This document shows, piece by piece, positions 11,021-18,222 of a DNA stretch of 32,985 nt. The translations under genes were made by a program, and so were the position numbers. The stretch spans positions 1 to 32,985 of the forward strand of contig JAAWBT010000027.1 in the NCBI GenBank assembly GCA_022792835.1, written 5' to 3'. How positions within the stretch are numbered: the stretch's first letter is position 1; the number at the start of each line of letters is the position of its first letter. Source of the DNA: Lachnospiraceae bacterium. GTDB taxonomy: Bacteria; Bacillota; Clostridia; Lachnospirales; Lachnospiraceae. Under the pieces are notes generated by a model that was not told the origin of the DNA, made no database searches, and worked only from the letters and a program-made list of their open reading frames with translations.

Positions 11021-14000
11021 ATGAAACGGATTTTGGTGTGTCTGCTTTCTGCTGTTCTGATCCTTATGCCCTGTCTGATGGCCTACGGAACTGGGGCCCA
11101 GGGAGACGGGATGGGAGAGACAAAGCAAGAGGCAGAGAGCGCTGCTTTGGAAACGGAGAAGGCGGAGACGAAGGACACGGCTTCTGAGACAGAGAGCGCT
11201 GTTTCAGAGGCGGAGACAGAGAGCGCTGCTCCTGGGGCAGAGAAGCAGGAGACAGAAGGCGTCCCTTCGGATACGGAGGAGCAGGAGACAGAAGGCGCCC
11301 CTTCGGATACGGAAAAGCAGGAGACAGAGAGCGCCGTTTCGGAGATGGAGAAACAGGAAACACAGGGAGATGAGACGGAGAGCAAAGGAGAAAACAGCCA
11401 GGTCAGTGTTTCCATCCACAGCGGGCTGCTGCCCCAAAAGTCAGTGGAGTTTTCCGTTTCTCTGACAGACGAAAACGGGACAAAGTCGAAGACGATTATC
11501 CTTGACGAAAAGGCAGAGAGTGCCACAGAGGCTTTTGAGGGACTTCCGGTGGGAACCTACACCTTGGAGATCTCGGCCCCTGGTTTTGTGCCCCATAAAC
11601 AGGAAATTTCCCTGAGCGGCTGGGGGTGTTCCCTGGATTTTTATATTGGTTATCAGAATGGCTTTGACTATGAGGGAGGAAGTCATCCCGGTGTGCTTCT
11701 TGTGGGAGATGTGGACGGAGACGGTCTGCTGACTTCAGAAGATCAAAAGGTTATCATAGATGCCCTGGATGCAGTAAAATCCGGGAAGGCGACGGAGGAA
11801 AGCGCCGGGATTGATGTGAACGGGGACGGAAAAACGAATTTGGCGGATCTGGAGTATTTTGCGAAGTGTTATCTGCCAGAGGGGAACACAGAAGCCGGCC
11901 CGGGGGCACGTCTGGTGCCGGCGGCAGTCATTCAGGGGAAGGCAGGGAGCAGTACCCACCTTAAAGGGGAGCTTTCTGCCATGCTTACAGGGGAGGAGAC
12001 TGTGACTCTGGAGGCGGCAGTGGGAGAGATTTCCGGAAGCAATCCCGTCTCTATGGAGTTCGAATTCCCGGATGGAGGAGATTTCCCTGTGGGCGGGATC
12101 GTCGTTGGAGCGGTGAAGGAGAATCCCATCAGCCAGGCTGAGATCACCCTTGTCTATACAGAGGAGGGGACAGAGAAAACCTTGTCTGTGCCTGTGGCAG
12201 AGGGGATCCATTTTCTCCTTGAGTCAGATATGGTAGAGGTGAACCAGGAGTCGGACGGGACGATCTGTATCAATCTGGGAACGCAGATTGCCGTGAAAAA
12301 GGTCACCATAACCATCACAGGGATGAAGAATAACAACAATCTGGCGGAGATCTCCAAAGTTGAATTTGTAAATAATATGGGGGATCGAATCCCGGAGCCT
12401 AAGATGGATATTCCGGAAAATCTTTCTGCCAAGGCGGGAAATAAGTCCTTCACAGTCACCTGGGTTCCTTGCCTCAATGTGACGGGGTATGAGGTTTTCG
12501 TTGAGAGTGAGGGATTGGAGGATACACAGTATGTGCAGGGCAACAGCCTCACAGTGTCCTCTCTGGGCACGGAAGAAAAGCTGACCAATGGCCAGGAGTA
12601 CACGGTAAAAGTCCGGGCTGTGAACGGTTCCTGGAGGAGTCCCTACAGCGCTCCGGTGACAGTTATCCCGAAACCGTCTGGAAAGCCGGATGCTCCGGAC
12701 GGCGTCAGCGCCGTAGGAAAATATAAGAGCATCAATGTATCTTGGAAAAAGATGGAGGATACGGATACCTATAATCTGTATTACCGTCTCTCCGGCACAG
12801 AGGCATATGAAAAAATTGAGGGTCTTGAGGAGAACCGGGCCACTATTTCTGACCTGGAAGACAAGACAAAGTACGAGGTTTATGTGACTGGGGTCAATGA
12901 GTTTGGGGAGAGCAACCCGTCTCTGACAGCTGCCGCAGTGACAGAAGATCCGGATCCGGCCCATATGCCCAAGTTCGGATTGATCAATCAGGGAGAGGAA
13001 GGCGCAGTGGGAGCTCACATGGCAGGCGCCTCTATAAAACAGGGAGGCATGAAGGAGAGCCCGCTGGATACGGCCTCTGGCACTGCCTGGGGAACAGTGG
13101 ATAAAAACCCTGCTTCCTACTATTCCTGCGAGACATGGGATACCGGCGGTTATAATGCCATGGGCGCCAACCATGGATTGTTCTATGAGTTCGATCAAGA
13201 ATATAAGATTCAGTCTTTTGCTTTCCAGGAACCGGCAGTCCAGGCTGTAGGCTATGGTTATGTGAGAGTCCGGTGGTGGAATGGAGACGGGACAGTTTCA
13301 GAGACCGTAAGCGGTTCACTCCAGAGAAAGACTGATGAGGAGGGACGGGTCTATTACCGGGTCCGCCTGCCAGAAGCCGTGACGGCAAAGAAACTCCAGA
13401 TTGGTCTGGCCAGAGCCGTGGCAAGCGGGAGCGTCACAGTCTCAGAGATTTATTTCTACCATTATAATTCTCTGGAGGACGAGATCTTTGCCCTTTACAC
13501 GGATGATCTGCACACTGTGCTCAGAGAAGATGTGACCCAGGAGACCATTGACGCACTCCGAGTGCGCATCAATACGCCGGATCCGGACTGCGGGGAATAT
13601 CATCCGGACAAAGAGGCCCTGGAGCGGGAGTTAAAGACTGCGGAGGATATTTTAAACTCCAGCCTGACAGCGCCCACTGAGGTCCACAGCCAGATCAGTA
13701 CCAACGATGCAAGTCTCGGCTTTGGGGGCTTAAATGCATGGCAGCCTCTTGGCGTGACTGTGGCAGCCGGGGAAGAGATCACAGTCTATGTGGGGCATCC
13801 TTCCAAAAAGACAGGAGATTCTACCAATCTGCAGCTTGTGGCGACCCAGTACCATTCGGAGTCTGGCATGCCAGTCAAAGTGGTGAATCTGAAGATCGGA
13901 AGGAACGATATCACCATTCCGAAGCTGTGGTCAACGGACAAAGAATCCGGCGGCGCCCTCTATGTCCAGTATACGGGAAAGAATGTAAACGACCGATATG

Positions 14001-16393
14001 CAGTGCGGGTAAGCGGCGGTGCGGCGGTGCCTGTCCTTGATCTTTATAAAGTGACAGATGAGGCGGAGCGCAGACAGAGGGCAGAGGCCTATGTGACGGC
14101 CCTGGATTCTTATGTGGGATCCATGGAGGCCACTCATGAAACACTCCATAAGAACTCCAAGAACACGGCTGTTCAGTATAACTATGAGGTTGCAAACTGT
14201 ATTCTTGGCGCTTCCGACATTCTGTCGGATACCATGATGTTCTCCCTCCCTGCGCCTCAGATTCTTTCCGGGCTTGGAAGCGGGACTGTGTCAGAGCGGG
14301 CTCAGACTCTTCTGACTTCTGTGGGAGCCATGGAGTCCATGATGGATCTTTTCTATCAGCACAAGGGACTCAATGAAGCGGCGGAGAATGTGAAAAATCA
14401 GTATCCTTGCAGACATTTGAACATTCGGTATCAGCGGATGTTTGCAGGAGCTTTCATGTATGCCTCTGGCAACCATATCGGAATCGAATGGAATGAGACG
14501 AAGGGCATGGTAAACTGCAAGTCGCTTCAGGCGGATGCCAGTGGAAAATATATAAGCGGCAATTATTTTGGCTGGGGCATTGCCCATGAGATCGGCCACT
14601 GTATCAATCAGGGAGCCTATGCCGTTGCAGAGGTTACCAACAACTACTATGCGGTTCTGGCTCAGGCGAAGGACAAAAATGACAGCGTTCGTTTCCAGTA
14701 CAGCAAGGTTTATGAAAAGGTGACTTCCCAGACAAAGGGCCGGGCCTCAAACGTCTTTACTCAGCTTGGCATGTATTGGCAGCTCCATCTGGCCTATGAC
14801 GACGGATATAATTTCAAGACCTATGCGGACCCGGCGGAGCAGTTTAACAAGCTGTTCTTTGCCAGAGTGGATACCTATGCAAGAGGCGGGCAGACGGCTC
14901 CTGCGCCTAAAGGCGTGGCCTTAAGCCTGTCGGGAGACCGGGATCAGGATCTGATGCGCCTGGCCTGCGCGGCGGCGGAAAAGAATATCCTGGAATTCTT
15001 CGAGCGGTGGGGTATGACGCCAAACGACGATACAATCGCCTATGCAGAGCAGTTTGATAAAGAGCTTCGGGCTATTTACTATGTAAACGACGAGGCCCGC
15101 GTATACAGGCTGGAAAGCGGAGGAAAGAGCAGTCTGGATCCTTCCGGCTCCACATCCGGTGTGGGAGAGGGGACGACAGCGGCTGTCCATACAGGAATAC
15201 CCAATCAGGTGGATCTGACTCTGACAGCTTCCATTCCGGCAAATGACGTGCTGGGCTATGAGATTGTGCGGTGTATAACCTCTGGCGGAAAGACAGAGCG
15301 GCAGTTGGTAGGATTTTCCACGGAAGGGACTTTCCAGGATTCCGTGACGACCATGAACAACCGGGTAGTGACCTACGAGGTGACAGTGGTTGACAAATAT
15401 CTGAACCGCTCGGCGGTAAAGACCCTGGAACCCTTAAAGATTGAGCATAACGGAAGTATGGAGAAGACGGGCTGGACTCTGACCACAAATGATCTGACGG
15501 ATACGAATGTGGGAGATGTGGGAACGGGGAATGATTCGGATCCCTGCGGGCCTGTCGCAGAAGCGCCCATCATGAAGGCGGTGGACGGCAATACGGCCAC
15601 ATCCTATACGGGAAAGGCCGGGGCGGCTGCAGAGATTATTGTGGACTTCCATAAGACTCTGACTGTCGCTGGAATTCAGTATACAGCGGCAGAAGGGACA
15701 GCTATCAAAGACTACAGTGTATCCGTTCTTGGAACGGACGGCAAGTGGACTGAGGCTGCCGCCGGAACCTTTGGAGGAAAAGAGACGGAGACCGTTTACT
15801 TTGCGAGAGGCGGAAATGTCGCTTACCATGATGCTGTGGCGCTGAAGCTTTCCATCAAGAACCAGAGTGGGACGGAGATCACAGTCAGCGAGCTTGACGT
15901 GCTTGGCGTCACCGGGGATAATGTGGATTTCTACAGAACCGGCGACAACACACCTGCAATCGGAAAACTTGCAGGCGGTGATTATAAATTCGGGACAGGA
16001 GCAGATGACGTGATCCCGGAGGGTTCCATTCTCTTTAACGGGACCTATAAAGGAAATCCTGCCTACAATGTGGTGTTGCTCTACGACCAGGATGGAAACA
16101 TCGTGGGAGGTACCGATGAGGAAGGAAATCTGAAAGTGTACCAGACGATTCTGGCAGATGTGCCGGCTACAGGAAAGATTGAGGATGTGTCGGCCGGAAC
16201 CTGGATCTACTGGGTCGAGCCAGAGGACATAAGCGGCCTTTCTGGTGTGACGAAGGTTAGGGCGGAGCTCTACCGGGTGGATAATGCCGAGACCAATGAG
16301 GGTCAGCGGATGGTAAGTGACTCCTTCTTTGAGGAGATTCCGGCTGAACTTCCGGACATTAGGCTTACAGGAGGTTCGCCTGAAGGCAATTAA
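11021..16393 (+). CDS. Secreted dockerin-bearing M60-like metalloprotease (putative mucinase)
   Basis: A 1790-residue extracellular protein. Order: signal peptide (about 1-25); acidic Glu/Thr/Ser linker with 12-residue repeats (74-119); CnaB-like beta domain (about 130-210); type I dockerin with two calcium loops, DVDGDGLLTSED (230-241) and DVNGDGKTNLAD (265-276); beta region; two fibronectin III domains (about 460-552, 556-645); discoidin-like domain (about 660-830); M60-like peptidase region (about 890-1370); a C-terminal F5/8-type domain (about 1500-1630) and tail. The M60 call rests on LGVTVAAGEEITVYVGH and the zinc motif HEIGH (1189-1193) with a Glu at 1204 in EVTNN. M60-like enzymes of gut bacteria cleave mucin-type O-glycoproteins (family knowledge); the target here is inferred. 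There is no LPxTG or C-terminal membrane segment. AGGAGG precedes the ATG. It lies 41 bases after ulaE and 18 before the cohesin-like gene. Confidence 0.88.
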   Translation: MKRILVCLLSAVLILMPCLMAYGTGAQGDGMGETKQEAESAALETEKAETKDTASETESAVSEAETESAAPGAEKQETEGVPSDTEEQETEGAPSDTEKQETESAVSEMEKQETQGDETESKGENSQVSVSIHSGLLPQKSVEFSVSLTDENGTKSKTIILDEKAESATEAFEGLPVGTYTLEISAPGFVPHKQEISLSGWGCSLDFYIGYQNGFDYEGGSHPGVLLVGDVDGDGLLTSEDQKVIIDALDAVKSGKATEESAGIDVNGDGKTNLADLEYFAKCYLPEGNTEAGPGARLVPAAVIQGKAGSSTHLKGELSAMLTGEETVTLEAAVGEISGSNPVSMEFEFPDGGDFPVGGIVVGAVKENPISQAEITLVYTEEGTEKTLSVPVAEGIHFLLESDMVEVNQESDGTICINLGTQIAVKKVTITITGMKNNNNLAEISKVEFVNNMGDRIPEPKMDIPENLSAKAGNKSFTVTWVPCLNVTGYEVFVESEGLEDTQYVQGNSLTVSSLGTEEKLTNGQEYTVKVRAVNGSWRSPYSAPVTVIPKPSGKPDAPDGVSAVGKYKSINVSWKKMEDTDTYNLYYRLSGTEAYEKIEGLEENRATISDLEDKTKYEVYVTGVNEFGESNPSLTAAAVTEDPDPAHMPKFGLINQGEEGAVGAHMAGASIKQGGMKESPLDTASGTAWGTVDKNPASYYSCETWDTGGYNAMGANHGLFYEFDQEYKIQSFAFQEPAVQAVGYGYVRVRWWNGDGTVSETVSGSLQRKTDEEGRVYYRVRLPEAVTAKKLQIGLARAVASGSVTVSEIYFYHYNSLEDEIFALYTDDLHTVLREDVTQETIDALRVRINTPDPDCGEYHPDKEALERELKTAEDILNSSLTAPTEVHSQISTNDASLGFGGLNAWQPLGVTVAAGEEITVYVGHPSKKTGDSTNLQLVATQYHSESGMPVKVVNLKIGRNDITIPKLWSTDKESGGALYVQYTGKNVNDRYAVRVSGGAAVPVLDLYKVTDEAERRQRAEAYVTALDSYVGSMEATHETLHKNSKNTAVQYNYEVANCILGASDILSDTMMFSLPAPQILSGLGSGTVSERAQTLLTSVGAMESMMDLFYQHKGLNEAAENVKNQYPCRHLNIRYQRMFAGAFMYASGNHIGIEWNETKGMVNCKSLQADASGKYISGNYFGWGIAHEIGHCINQGAYAVAEVTNNYYAVLAQAKDKNDSVRFQYSKVYEKVTSQTKGRASNVFTQLGMYWQLHLAYDDGYNFKTYADPAEQFNKLFFARVDTYARGGQTAPAPKGVALSLSGDRDQDLMRLACAAAEKNILEFFERWGMTPNDDTIAYAEQFDKELRAIYYVNDEARVYRLESGGKSSLDPSGSTSGVGEGTTAAVHTGIPNQVDLTLTASIPANDVLGYEIVRCITSGGKTERQLVGFSTEGTFQDSVTTMNNRVVTYEVTVVDKYLNRSAVKTLEPLKIEHNGSMEKTGWTLTTNDLTDTNVGDVGTGNDSDPCGPVAEAPIMKAVDGNTATSYTGKAGAAAEIIVDFHKTLTVAGIQYTAAEGTAIKDYSVSVLGTDGKWTEAAAGTFGGKETETVYFARGGNVAYHDAVALKLSIKNQSGTEITVSELDVLGVTGDNVDFYRTGDNTPAIGKLAGGDYKFGTGADDVIPEGSILFNGTYKGNPAYNVVLLYDQDGNIVGGTDEEGNLKVYQTILADVPATGKIEDVSAGTWIYWVEPEDISGLSGVTKVRAELYRVDNAETNEGQRMVSDSFFEEIPAELPDIRLTGGSPEGN
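11240..11377 (+). repeat. 36-base tandem repeats encoding an acidic linker
   Basis: About 3.8 copies of a 36-base unit encode 12-residue repeats of the form EKQETEGxPSDT, degenerating toward the end. They form the Glu/Thr/Ser-rich spacer between the signal peptide and the first folded domain of the M60 protein. Confidence 0.85.
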
Positions 16394-16411
16394 GGCGCAA
16401 AGGAGCAGAAC

Positions 16412-17380
16412 ATGAAAAGATATTTACGAAAAAAAATAACAATGGCCGCAGCCCTGCTTGTGGCAGCGCTTATGTGTTTCGCAGCTGTGCCTATGGAAAG
16501 CTTTGCGGCGGAGGTTACGGTGGAGGAGGGCCAGGGCAGCGCCCCGGTATCCCTCCTGTTAGACAGAGAGGAAGGCGCCAGGAAAGGCGCCACCTCACTG
16601 GAGCTTGGTCTTAAAATCACTTCAGAGAATCCGGAAGGGATGCAGGTTTCTTTCGACTTTTCGGAAAGCTTAAAAACCGGGCGTGTGGCGGAATTCCGTT
16701 ATCATGCAGATACAGGGATCCTGAATTTATATGTTGCAGGAGAGACCCCGCTGTTTGCGGAGAGTGCGGAAACCCTTCTTCTGGGCCAGGTGGTTGCCGA
16801 GGGAAATGCCGTCCGGGTCAATGTGGTGGAAAATTCTTTGAAATTGTCCGGAAACGGAGTGGTGGAAGAGGAGATTTCCTTACAGACTCTGGCAGAAGAT
16901 GTGCCGATCACAGATGGAGATGTGCCGGGGCCGGTAGACCGCTCAAAGCTTCAGGAGATTCTTGTCAAAGTGGCAGAATATAAGGCAGATGATTATACGC
17001 CGGAGAGCTACGCTATTTTGGCAGAGGCAGTAAAGACGGCGGAGGCAGTCCTTGGAAAAGCCGATGCGACTCAGGAGGAGATCGACGAGGCAGTTCTTTT
17101 AGTGGAAAATGCCATCGGTTCCCTGGTGGAAAAACAGAATGTAATCGGGGGTAATCAGCCTCCTGCCAGCACAGACCAGAACGGGACGGGATCTGGCCCG
17201 TCCGGGTCACAAGGCCAGCAGAAGCCTGGAACAAACAGTACAGGAAAAGGGGCGGATACGGGGGATAAGACCACAATACTTCCCTATGTGATCCTGGCCA
17301 TGGCCAGTATAGCTGCCATCGGAGGAGTTCTCATCATGCAGAGACGAAAGTCCGGGAGAAAGGGCAGGCCAGAAAAATAG
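16412..17380 (+). CDS. Surface-anchored cohesin-like/FIVAR protein, putative partner of the M60 protease
   Basis: 322 residues: a signal peptide ending near AVPMESFAA (33), a beta-rich domain (about 34-160), a FIVAR helical domain (about 175-245, PVDRSKLQEILVKV to AIGSLVEK), a Gly/Ser/Pro/Gln linker, then a TGD motif at about 282, a membrane segment (about 287-307) and a basic tail RRKSGRKGRPEK. The beta domain, with VSFDFSESLK, FRYHADTGILNLYVAG and LLLGQVVAEG, resembles a cohesin; this is a remote match by eye. The TGD-membrane-RRK end looks like a non-canonical sortase signal without LPxTG, or else a plain membrane anchor. It lies 18 bases after the dockerin-bearing M60 gene with its own AAAGGAG site, so the two are very probably co-transcribed and may bind each other. 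No terminator is seen after it. Confidence 0.75.
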   Translation: MKRYLRKKITMAAALLVAALMCFAAVPMESFAAEVTVEEGQGSAPVSLLLDREEGARKGATSLELGLKITSENPEGMQVSFDFSESLKTGRVAEFRYHADTGILNLYVAGETPLFAESAETLLLGQVVAEGNAVRVNVVENSLKLSGNGVVEEEISLQTLAEDVPITDGDVPGPVDRSKLQEILVKVAEYKADDYTPESYAILAEAVKTAEAVLGKADATQEEIDEAVLLVENAIGSLVEKQNVIGGNQPPASTDQNGTGSGPSGSQGQQKPGTNSTGKGADTGDKTTILPYVILAMASIAAIGGVLIMQRRKSGRKGRPEK

Positions 17381-17382
17381 TC

Positions 17383-18222
17383 TCAATGGCTCTGAATCTG
17401 AACCAGCACGCCTTCTTTTAAAGACAGACAGTCGCTGCTGTAAGAGATGAGATACAGATAATATTCACCTTCTTCCTCTGCGGTATATCCATAGGTTCCA
17501 GCCGCAGAGGGGAAGGTTTCTCCTTGGTACATGACGCCATTTTTGACAAAACCGATGTGCAGTCGCTGATTGGAGCTGGTCTCAGAAGGGTATTTGTCAA
17601 AGGTGTAGGAGAGGCTTTCTCCTGGCTTTAAAGCCCAGCCAGAGCCGTCTGATTTTGTGAAAACGGCGGGGGAGGCATTTACCAGCATGATCTCTTGGCT
17701 GTACCATATGTTTTCTTCTGCCTGATCCACAGGAAATTCTGTCACAGGGGCAGAAAGCGGCTTCAGGTCGTCCATATTTTTGACGATTCTGCTCTGGGAA
17801 GGATCAAAATCCTGACTTTGGCATAAAGCTTCCATATCTACCGCAGTTCCGTATTTATCATAATACTTCCCATTTTCATAAATATAATAGGTGTCAGAAA
17901 CCGTCTCTGTTCCGATCAGATGCCGGTTGGAATCATCTATCTGCGTATTTTTCGTTATCCTGCCGGACAGAGAATACACGGTGACAGAGGATATCACAGC
18001 AAAAACCAAAAACAGGCCGGCAAGGCGATAAATCTGTACCAGTCTGCCATGGGATGGAAAAAGAGCAGTGCGGACCTTTCGCCAGATACAGAATTTTCGG
18101 CCGGGAAGCCGGCGGTATCCAGCCTGGGTAGTTTTTGAGATAGCAGTAGAAGAGACAGCCTCCCAGAAGTCCTCCTCCATGTCTTCCATCAGTTCATAAA
18201 AGGATATCTTTGTAATTTTCAT
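17383..18222 (-). CDS. Membrane anti-sigma factor for the adjacent ECF sigma factor
   Basis: 279 residues with an acidic N-terminal cytoplasmic part (about 1-62), one membrane segment (about 66-86, AGLFLVFAVISSVTVYSLSG) and an outside domain of about 190 residues. Its start overlaps the sigma factor gene by 29 bases, the typical sign of a translationally coupled sigma/anti-sigma pair. I see no zinc-binding HxxxCxxC motif, so it is not a ZAS-type anti-sigma. The last 100 residues (GESLSYTF, LHIGFVKNGVMYQG, GTYGYTAEEEGEYYLYLISYSS) look like a GOLD-type beta-sandwich that could sense an envelope signal. Function is inferred from position and topology. Its stop is only 2 bases from the stop of the convergent cohesin-like gene. 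Confidence 0.75.
   Translation of the reverse strand: MKITKISFYELMEDMEEDFWEAVSSTAISKTTQAGYRRLPGRKFCIWRKVRTALFPSHGRLVQIYRLAGLFLVFAVISSVTVYSLSGRITKNTQIDDSNRHLIGTETVSDTYYIYENGKYYDKYGTAVDMEALCQSQDFDPSQSRIVKNMDDLKPLSAPVTEFPVDQAEENIWYSQEIMLVNASPAVFTKSDGSGWALKPGESLSYTFDKYPSETSSNQRLHIGFVKNGVMYQGETFPSAAGTYGYTAEEEGEYYLYLISYSSDCLSLKEGVLVQIQSH

Follow-up and report, generated by a model that had tools for sequence, protein, structure and literature searches.

How a secreted protease without a visible anchor is kept at the cell that makes it is the question raised by two neighbouring genes of a Lachnospiraceae bacterium, a member of a gut-dwelling family. The window is the whole stretch of DNA that was analysed, 32,985 nucleotides of contig JAAWBT010000027.1 (assembly GCA_022792835.1), and its source is a 2.59 Mb draft genome that is 84.5% complete. 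The first gene encodes a 1790-residue zinc metallopeptidase of the M60 family, in which no membrane or sorting signal was seen by eye beyond residue 1785. The second gene encodes a secreted protein of 322 residues, hereafter the small protein. An earlier note on this DNA had proposed that a cohesin in the small protein holds a dockerin of the protease at the surface. The analysis described here makes it highly probable that the two genes form one surface-display unit, in which a divergent, type-II-like pair of a cohesin and an X-module-dockerin (XDoc) dyad would tether a host-glycoprotein protease to the cell, often as a single unit per genome and with interchangeable anchors.

The predicted X-module-dockerin dyad of the protease

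The dockerin features the two calcium-binding loops that a type II-like XDoc pair requires, DVDGDGLLTSED at residues 230-241 and DVNGDGKTNLAD at residues 265-276, which is where the earlier note had placed them. The Pfam model Dockerin_1 scores a marginal 20.1 bits on the whole protein against a cut-off of 22.9, 25.2 bits on the isolated region, and 28.9 bits in the per-genome search. In relatives, the beta module at residues 128-215 is matched by CarboxypepD_reg in 67 of 70 members and by PEGA in 59, and the stretch that follows it is matched by Dockerin_1 in 50 of the 70 (all at E 0.01). A sequence profile of the X and dockerin region retrieves dockerins from the PDB, and it additionally reaches the XDoc dyads of scaffoldins (4wi0, 4u3s, and also 2b59) over parts of both modules.

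The AlphaFold2 (AF2) model of protease residues 122-300 was built from 70 sequences and has a predicted local distance difference test score (pLDDT) of 92.4 and a predicted TM-score (pTM) of 0.87. The top ten Foldseek matches of this model in the PDB are type II XDoc chains (from 5k39, 4wi0, 4u3s, 4fl4, 5g5d, 5m0y, 2b59, and 3kcp), which align over 175-191 columns that include both modules, and the eleventh match is unrelated. The chains of 4fl4 and 3kcp are taken to be XDoc chains. As modelled, the dockerin and the X module before it together form an XDoc dyad that resembles type II. The earlier note had described a clear type I dockerin; the dockerin stands, whereas the type is contradicted by the predicted dyad, its type II XDoc matches, and the PDB profile.

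The predicted cohesin fold of the small protein

The first domain of the small protein was modelled with AF2 over residues 28-172 from 67 sequences, with fair scores (pLDDT 82.8, pTM 0.78). Foldseek gave 60 PDB matches for this model at E 0.001 or better, 50 of which were listed. Among the 50 listed, 41 are titled cohesin or Coh, including type I, type II, and Clostridium perfringens (C. perfringens) cohesins, 8 are chains of 4fl4, 3kcp, and 2o4e, which we take to bear cohesins, and the remaining match, 7lgr, is to an adhesin domain. The cohesin chains of 4wi0, 4u3s, 5k39, 2b59, and 5g5d, which are the partners of XDoc dyads, are among these listed matches. Structure prediction had been set beforehand as the check on this domain, which had been called cohesin-like by remote resemblance; no confident non-cohesin fold emerged, and the predicted fold is that of a cohesin in 49 of the 50 listed matches. 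By prediction, then, the first domain is a cohesin fold that was missed by all of the sequence methods used.

Conservation within the domain is uneven. The strands equated, by their order, with cohesin strands 3, 5, 6, and 8 have a mean conservation of 0.494 versus 0.318 for the other strands (p 1.9e-5), and, with 36 of the 145 residues, they account for 17 of the 25 positions that are best conserved. In solved complexes, strands 8-3-6-5 form the dockerin-binding face (PMC5934362).

Co-occurrence of the two genes

The family sample consisted of 299 genomes from 298 genera. The M60 core was found in 29 of these genomes (30 loci), and a profile of the cohesin domain matched 25 genomes (26 places), all of them within the 29. 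The same profile matched none of the 270 family genomes without M60 (Fisher p 1.3e-32). Because M60 neighbours were the source of the profile, what counts in this test is the lack of matches in the other genomes. Four M60 genomes had no profile match. An earlier model does detect the domain downstream in two of them, G280 (5e-7) and G111 (7.7e-6), and the other two, G242 and G179, feature a secreted downstream open reading frame (ORF) with a similar leading domain, by eye only. In G042 the gene pair is split over two contigs, and the cohesin lies after the M60 end on the second contig (locus L047).

A wider scan covered 84,980 species genomes, from which 80 loci were named, these being the best 80 of 567 relatives. 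The labels among these best 80 are mostly metagenome-assembled genomes (MAGs) of Lachnospiraceae, Dorea, Ruminococcus, Roseburia, and Oscillospiraceae, and they include two DSM strains, Acetatifactor muris (A. muris) DSM 23669 and Mediterraneibacter agrestimuris (M. agrestimuris) DSM 111629. The nearest M60 relatives of the window's protease are MAGs labelled Lachnospiraceae or Lachnotalea, with 80-81% identity across the core. The 80 loci, the window, and 29 family loci make 110 loci, which reduce to 107 distinct M60 genes once duplicates are removed (L091 equals L034, L083 equals L037, and L111 equals L036) and the split L121 is counted once.

A cohesin gene lies directly downstream on the same strand in 88 of the 107 distinct M60 genes, with a median gap of 18 bases (largest 296, and at most 100 in 79 of the 88), and in 6 further genes the cohesin is fused at the C-terminal side of the M60 protein. 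With the cohesin adjacent in 88 and fused in 6 of the 107 distinct related genes, the layout is more than chance, and with the 25 of 29 family genomes this recurrence bears out the comparative search by which the earlier note had proposed to judge the pair. Of the 13 genes without a match to the iterated model, 7 end 400 bases or less from the edge of their contig; among these, L047 is resolved on the second contig. The partner region of the enzyme is equally persistent. In an alignment read with a looser pattern, a dockerin region is present in each of the 106 M60 ORFs (103 distinct) that have their N-terminus within the contig. The strict paired-loop pattern is found in 78 of 111 M60 ORFs, in one of them only at the C-terminus, and in 75 of the 103 distinct N-termini; some first dockerin loops are degenerate, as in L054.

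Anchors and fused forms

The tails of 90 small proteins were sorted with a crude script that misplaces a few, and four of the 90 proteins are cut by contig ends. Within these limits, 35 tails feature a TG motif with a hydrophobic stretch and a basic tail, 24 a hydrophobic stretch and a basic tail, 5 wall-binding repeats, and 26 other endings. Pfam additionally finds FIVAR in 28 of the 90 (E 0.001), Choline_bind_3 in 8, fn3 in 7, and Big_2 in 4. Since the tails vary while the cohesin is shared, the anchor appears to be an exchangeable part. For the window's small protein, the earlier note had named a FIVAR domain and a membrane or cell-wall anchor. The TGD motif, hydrophobic stretch, and basic tail are seen directly, but FIVAR and the sorting signal both fall below the curated cut-offs in this protein; the NCBIfam sorting-signal models score 16 versus 21.35 bits and 11.5 versus 15.9 bits. 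The TGD pattern is likewise found in L062, L064, and L065, and the source genome contains 8 sortase matches.

In each of the six distinct fused genes (L036, L043, L044, L107, L113, and L124) the cohesin is followed by a second dockerin-like stretch near the C-terminus, and five of them also have an N-terminal XDoc on the contig. An N-terminal XDoc and a C-terminal cohesin in one chain make cis closure or head-to-tail chains possible, which would agree with a reading in which the pair does assemble but serves mainly adhesion or enzyme polymerisation, for example as chains or rings of the fused forms, instead of tethering. This reading is improbable, because the cohesin proteins encoded by separate genes usually end in a membrane or sorting-like tail or in wall-binding repeats (35, 24, and 5 of the 90), and such tails point to tethering. 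The fusion genomes G098, G158, and G220 each contain 25-39 dockerin matches (E 0.01), so an enzyme-cohesin chain could join a larger complex there.

The surface-display reading can be extended, tentatively and with more doubt than belief, to a hidden and widespread class of one-enzyme cohesin-dockerin systems. A cohesin lineage missed by Pfam might be tied, in Lachnospiraceae and Ruminococcus-type bacteria alike, to a single host-glycoprotein protease, with the anchor swapped freely among a sorting signal, wall-binding repeats, fn3 or Big stalks, and fusion to the protease together with a second dockerin. Where the genes are fused, the N-terminal XDoc might clasp the chain's own C-terminal cohesin, giving a ring of ~1700 residues that is plugged into the larger dockerin complex of the cell.

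Two anchors are of separate interest. The anchor protein L138:12395-14002 has two cohesin domains and an LPKTG-type tail, and its genome has four M60 matches. Locus L106, on a contig labelled as an Alistipes senegalensis MAG, combines an LPQTG-type anchor with an M60 protein like those of Ruminococcus-labelled MAGs, and this contig is probably mis-binned or mis-labelled.

Coevolution of the cohesin with parts of the enzyme

Pairwise distances were compared over 88 cohesin-enzyme pairs. The distances of the cohesin are correlated with those of all enzyme parts, which is expected from shared descent. When all other parts are accounted for, the partial correlation is 0.206 for the dockerin, 0.179 for the X module, 0.148 for the unnamed C-terminal region at residues 1641-1785, and at most 0.102 elsewhere. 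The dockerin or the X module ranks first in 187 of 200 subsamples. For both, the value is above that of each of 300 label permutations (maxima 0.167 for the dockerin and 0.145 for the X module), which is not so for the region 1641-1785 (maximum 0.155).

These values bear on whether the small protein could be a companion of a different kind, whose cohesin-fold domain touches the protease elsewhere, for instance in the region 1641-1785, or touches the substrate, while the XDoc binds something else or only stabilises the chain. The region 1641-1785 does correlate with the cohesin, with a subsample range of 0.088-0.213, and the cohesin follows this region in the six fused genes. The X module and the dockerin nevertheless correlate more, although they lie ~4 kb away at the opposite end of the gene; physical proximity would favour the C-terminal region over the far N-terminus. 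The subsamples and permutations likewise favour the dyad over the C-terminal region, no other dockerin partner is visible in the source genome, and the solved partners of this XDoc fold are type II cohesins. A companion of this kind is, on these grounds, decidedly unlikely.

Number of partners per genome

In the source genome, the dockerin of the M60 protease is the only one over the cut-off; a second match reaches 13.7 bits and is below it. Pfam finds no cohesin in this 84.5% complete draft, the cohesin profile finds one domain, and a multi-cohesin scaffoldin serving many dockerin enzymes was not found in it. The 13.7-bit half-dockerin match (L002, G000:C34:3781-3849) shares its small contig with a sortase match.

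Dockerin matches (E 0.01) across the 29 M60 genomes are single in 17, number 2-39 in 11, and are absent in G280; among the single matches listed, 10 lie at the M60 gene and 1 elsewhere (G284). A Pfam cohesin over the cut-off is found somewhere in 15 of the 29 genomes. That the XDoc docks on such an ordinary cohesin elsewhere in the genome, the neighbour being an unrelated surface stalk, has very little probability even with an incomplete source draft, as none of the 29 Pfam cohesin matches in the M60 genomes is at an M60 neighbour, 14 of the 29 lack any that exceeds the cut-off, the cohesin profile is silent wherever M60 is missing, and M60-cohesin fusions exist.

Seven further MAGs or strains were searched for M60 proteins and cohesins. 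A. muris, M. agrestimuris, and the MAG of L117 have one M60 and one cohesin match each, and four MAGs (three labelled Ruminococcus and one Clostridia) have 3-5 M60 proteins and 1-3 profile-detected cohesin domains. The description of the locus in the earlier note as a minimal dedicated pair is apt where a genome has a single M60 and a single cohesin, but it does not fit the four of seven with several enzymes. A dedicated one-enzyme pair is common but not a rule.

Evidence that weighs against the pairing

Several results pull against the reading of the two proteins as a docking cohesin and XDoc. The Foldseek TM-scores of the cohesin model are moderate (TMq 0.47-0.58, with a root-mean-square deviation of 4.8-7.0 Å over the 49 cohesin matches), and the strands of the binding face are numbered by their order. 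Pfam finds no cohesin (PF00963) in any of the 90 whole small proteins (E 0.001), and none in the window's own 322-residue protein or in 13 domains (E 1). When 67 domains were compared with Pfam (E 1), no cohesin was present among the 25 of 38 families listed, and PDB sequence-profile searches with the domain of the small protein retrieve no cohesin. In hhalign comparisons with 36 Pfam-matched cohesins, the domain reached p 0.0072 in local and 0.0024 in global mode, outscoring one reversed and 60 column-permuted controls. A decoy domain, residues 300-470 of the protease, equals true cohesins in the same comparison (p 0.013 and 0.0015), and for this reason the hhalign result was rejected as sequence evidence for a cohesin and is not counted.

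The comparative evidence has its own gaps. Among the 13 M60 genes without a match, 4 have a weak or by-eye downstream candidate only (L054, L060, L061, and L126), and 2 of the 107, L102 and L123, lack a downstream cohesin despite room for one. The MAG of L102 also holds the paired M60 L135, and that of L123 holds a profile-detected pair on another contig in addition to the by-eye L126, so these enzymes may share a cohesin. In a core-only control of the coevolution analysis, the X module (0.411), the dockerin (0.377), and the fibronectin III domains (0.370) behave alike (87 genes), the subsample ranges of the dockerin, the X module, and the region 1641-1785 overlap, and the effect, as judged from sequence distances, is small. 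Additionally, another cohesin could be missing from the source genome, given its completeness.

One further observation concerns L102. The product of the gene after its unpaired M60 (L102:6282-8531) is a secreted enzyme that resembles a glycoside hydrolase by eye and has a dockerin-like C-terminus.

The locus and the catalytic site

The features of the locus are collected in Table 1. The two ORFs are both present on the same strand, and the 18-base spacing given earlier is exact. The AAGGAG in the gap ends 6 bases upstream of the ATG of the second gene, and no terminator-like site is listed within the gap. The short gap and the AAGGAG suggest that both proteins are made from one transcript.

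Table 1. Features of the gene pair, with positions in the window
Feature	Positions	Strand	Basis
M60 (PF13402) zinc metallopeptidase with N-terminal XDoc dyad, 1790 residues	11021..16393	+	ORF list, Pfam
Signal peptide, then Glu/Thr/Ser-rich linker to ~residue 127	11021..11095 (signal peptide)	+	by eye
X module (predicted beta-sandwich, residues ~128-215), first half of XDoc dyad	11402..11665	+	Pfam in relatives, AF2, Foldseek
Dockerin, residues 229-278; calcium loops at 11708-11743 and 11813-11848	11705..11854	+	Pfam, loops read directly, PDB sequence profile
Two fibronectin III domains (best stretch 558-636)	12431..12928	+	Pfam; first boundary by eye
M60 catalytic domain; HEIGH at 14585-14599	14351..15013	+	Pfam
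F5/8 type C (CBM32-like) domain	15566..15802	+	Pfam
C-terminal region, residues 1641-1785, unnamed	15941..16375	+	sequence
Intergenic gap, 18 bases, with AAGGAG at 16400-16405	16394..16411	+	sequence
Cohesin-bearing (predicted) anchor protein, 322 residues	16412..17380	+	ORF list
Predicted cohesin domain, residues ~34-148 (modelled stretch 16493-16927)	16511..16855	+	AF2, Foldseek
FIVAR spacer domain	16967..17125	+	Pfam, 27.6 bits (below the cut-off of 29.2)
Sorting-like signal at the C-terminus, made up of TGD (17258-17266), a hydrophobic stretch and a basic tail	17252..17377	+	sequence

The Pfam model Peptidase_M60 scores 43.1 bits on the 1790-residue protein against a cut-off of 25.8, which places it in the family. 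The zinc motif that the earlier note had seen is read directly as HEIGH at residues 1189-1193. H1189, E1190, H1193, and E1204 are invariant across 21 aligned sequences, and Glu1204 is presumably the third zinc ligand. A profile search of the PDB relates the catalytic part to 5kdj (E 4.5e-14, residues 1181-1463) and to the O-glycopeptidase BcM60C (9pl8, E 1.4e-7, residues 1132-1339). By analogy with solved M60 relatives such as BcM60C, the substrate would be mucin or another O-glycosylated host protein.

Genome G281 has a second M60 gene (L038:2946-8294) that reads HVIGH where the other aligned M60 proteins read HEIGH, and the catalytic glutamate is therefore probably lost; this paralogue still has a dockerin and a paired cohesin gene. 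In the window's protease, residues 300-470 (11918-12430), directly after the dockerin, form an unnamed domain. The gene pair is adjoined by an ORF of 279 residues on the opposite strand (17383-18222, -) that has no Pfam match and features a membrane-like stretch by eye.

Proposed mechanism

In the surface-display reading, the two proteins would be made from one message and secreted. The small protein would be fixed outside the cell by its TGD, hydrophobic, and basic tail, acting as a sorting signal or a membrane tail, with the FIVAR domain as a spacer. The N-terminal XDoc of the protease would then dock on the cohesin in a calcium-dependent manner and tether the enzyme to the cell. The tethered protease, aided by its CBM32-like and fibronectin III domains, may cut O-glycosylated host proteins (mucins) beside the producer cell, and cleavage there would keep the products near the producer.

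Comparison with known systems

The type II pairs of Clostridium thermocellum and Acetivibrio cellulolyticus (2b59, 5k39, 4wi0, and 4u3s) provide the best matches of the XDoc model and are among the matches of the cohesin model, with a cohesin identity to the small protein of 7-18% in the listed alignments. These pairs link a multi-enzyme scaffoldin to the cell, whereas the pair described here would link one enzyme directly.

In Ruminococcus flavefaciens the XDoc of CttA likewise docks on a cohesin, that of ScaE, which is held on the wall by a C-terminal sortase motif (PMC5934362, PMC4266597). The CttA dyad is located on a cellulose-binding scaffold with N-terminal carbohydrate-binding modules (CBMs) in a multi-scaffoldin cellulosome (PMC4266597), while the present dyad is N-terminal on a protease and contains the only dockerin over the cut-off in its genome. 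The CttA dyad is additionally a five-helix dyad (PMC5934362), whereas the window's dockerin is modelled with two long helices.

The mucinolysome of Limousia is also a cohesin-dockerin display of mucin-acting gut enzymes, which include dockerin peptidases, with a sortase-anchored cohesin (PMC12997984). Strain ET540 has five scaffoldins and 21 dockerin carbohydrate-active enzymes that were found by Pfam models (PMC12997984), whereas the present cohesins are invisible to Pfam and mostly serve one M60 protease. The terms M60 and Lachnospiraceae are absent from the main text of that paper (PMC12997984). Non-cellulosomal glycoside hydrolases of C. perfringens likewise use single cohesins for pairwise assembly, and the C. 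perfringens structures 2jh2, 2vo8, 2w1n, and 2o4e are among the listed matches of the small protein. The C. perfringens cohesin proteins are also catalytic (both points as described in PMC12997984), whereas the small protein has no Pfam catalytic domain.

M60-like peptidases have been described as secreted proteins with the same PF13402 domain and the same CBM32 and fn3 accessory domains (PMC3267712). That 2012 survey reports a dockerin in 2 of 415 proteins and marks Clostridium and Bacillus members with '?-anchor', and a cohesin partner would answer this mark for the present clade (PMC3267712). A dedicated hidden cohesin, if true, would settle for a clade found in 29 of 299 genomes whether the mucinase is private and cell-bound or shared and secreted. 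The locus also suggests that dockerins taken for 'orphans' may have a partner after all, as a cohesin can adjoin them and yet escape Pfam, and cohesin surveys based on Pfam, such as that of the mucinolysome, can therefore undercount. No description of this M60-cohesin pair was found in the open-licence literature. What is new here, beside the systems compared above, is a cohesin lineage that the Pfam model does not cover, the N-terminal placement of an XDoc on an enzyme, and the one-enzyme scale; the working principle is already known.

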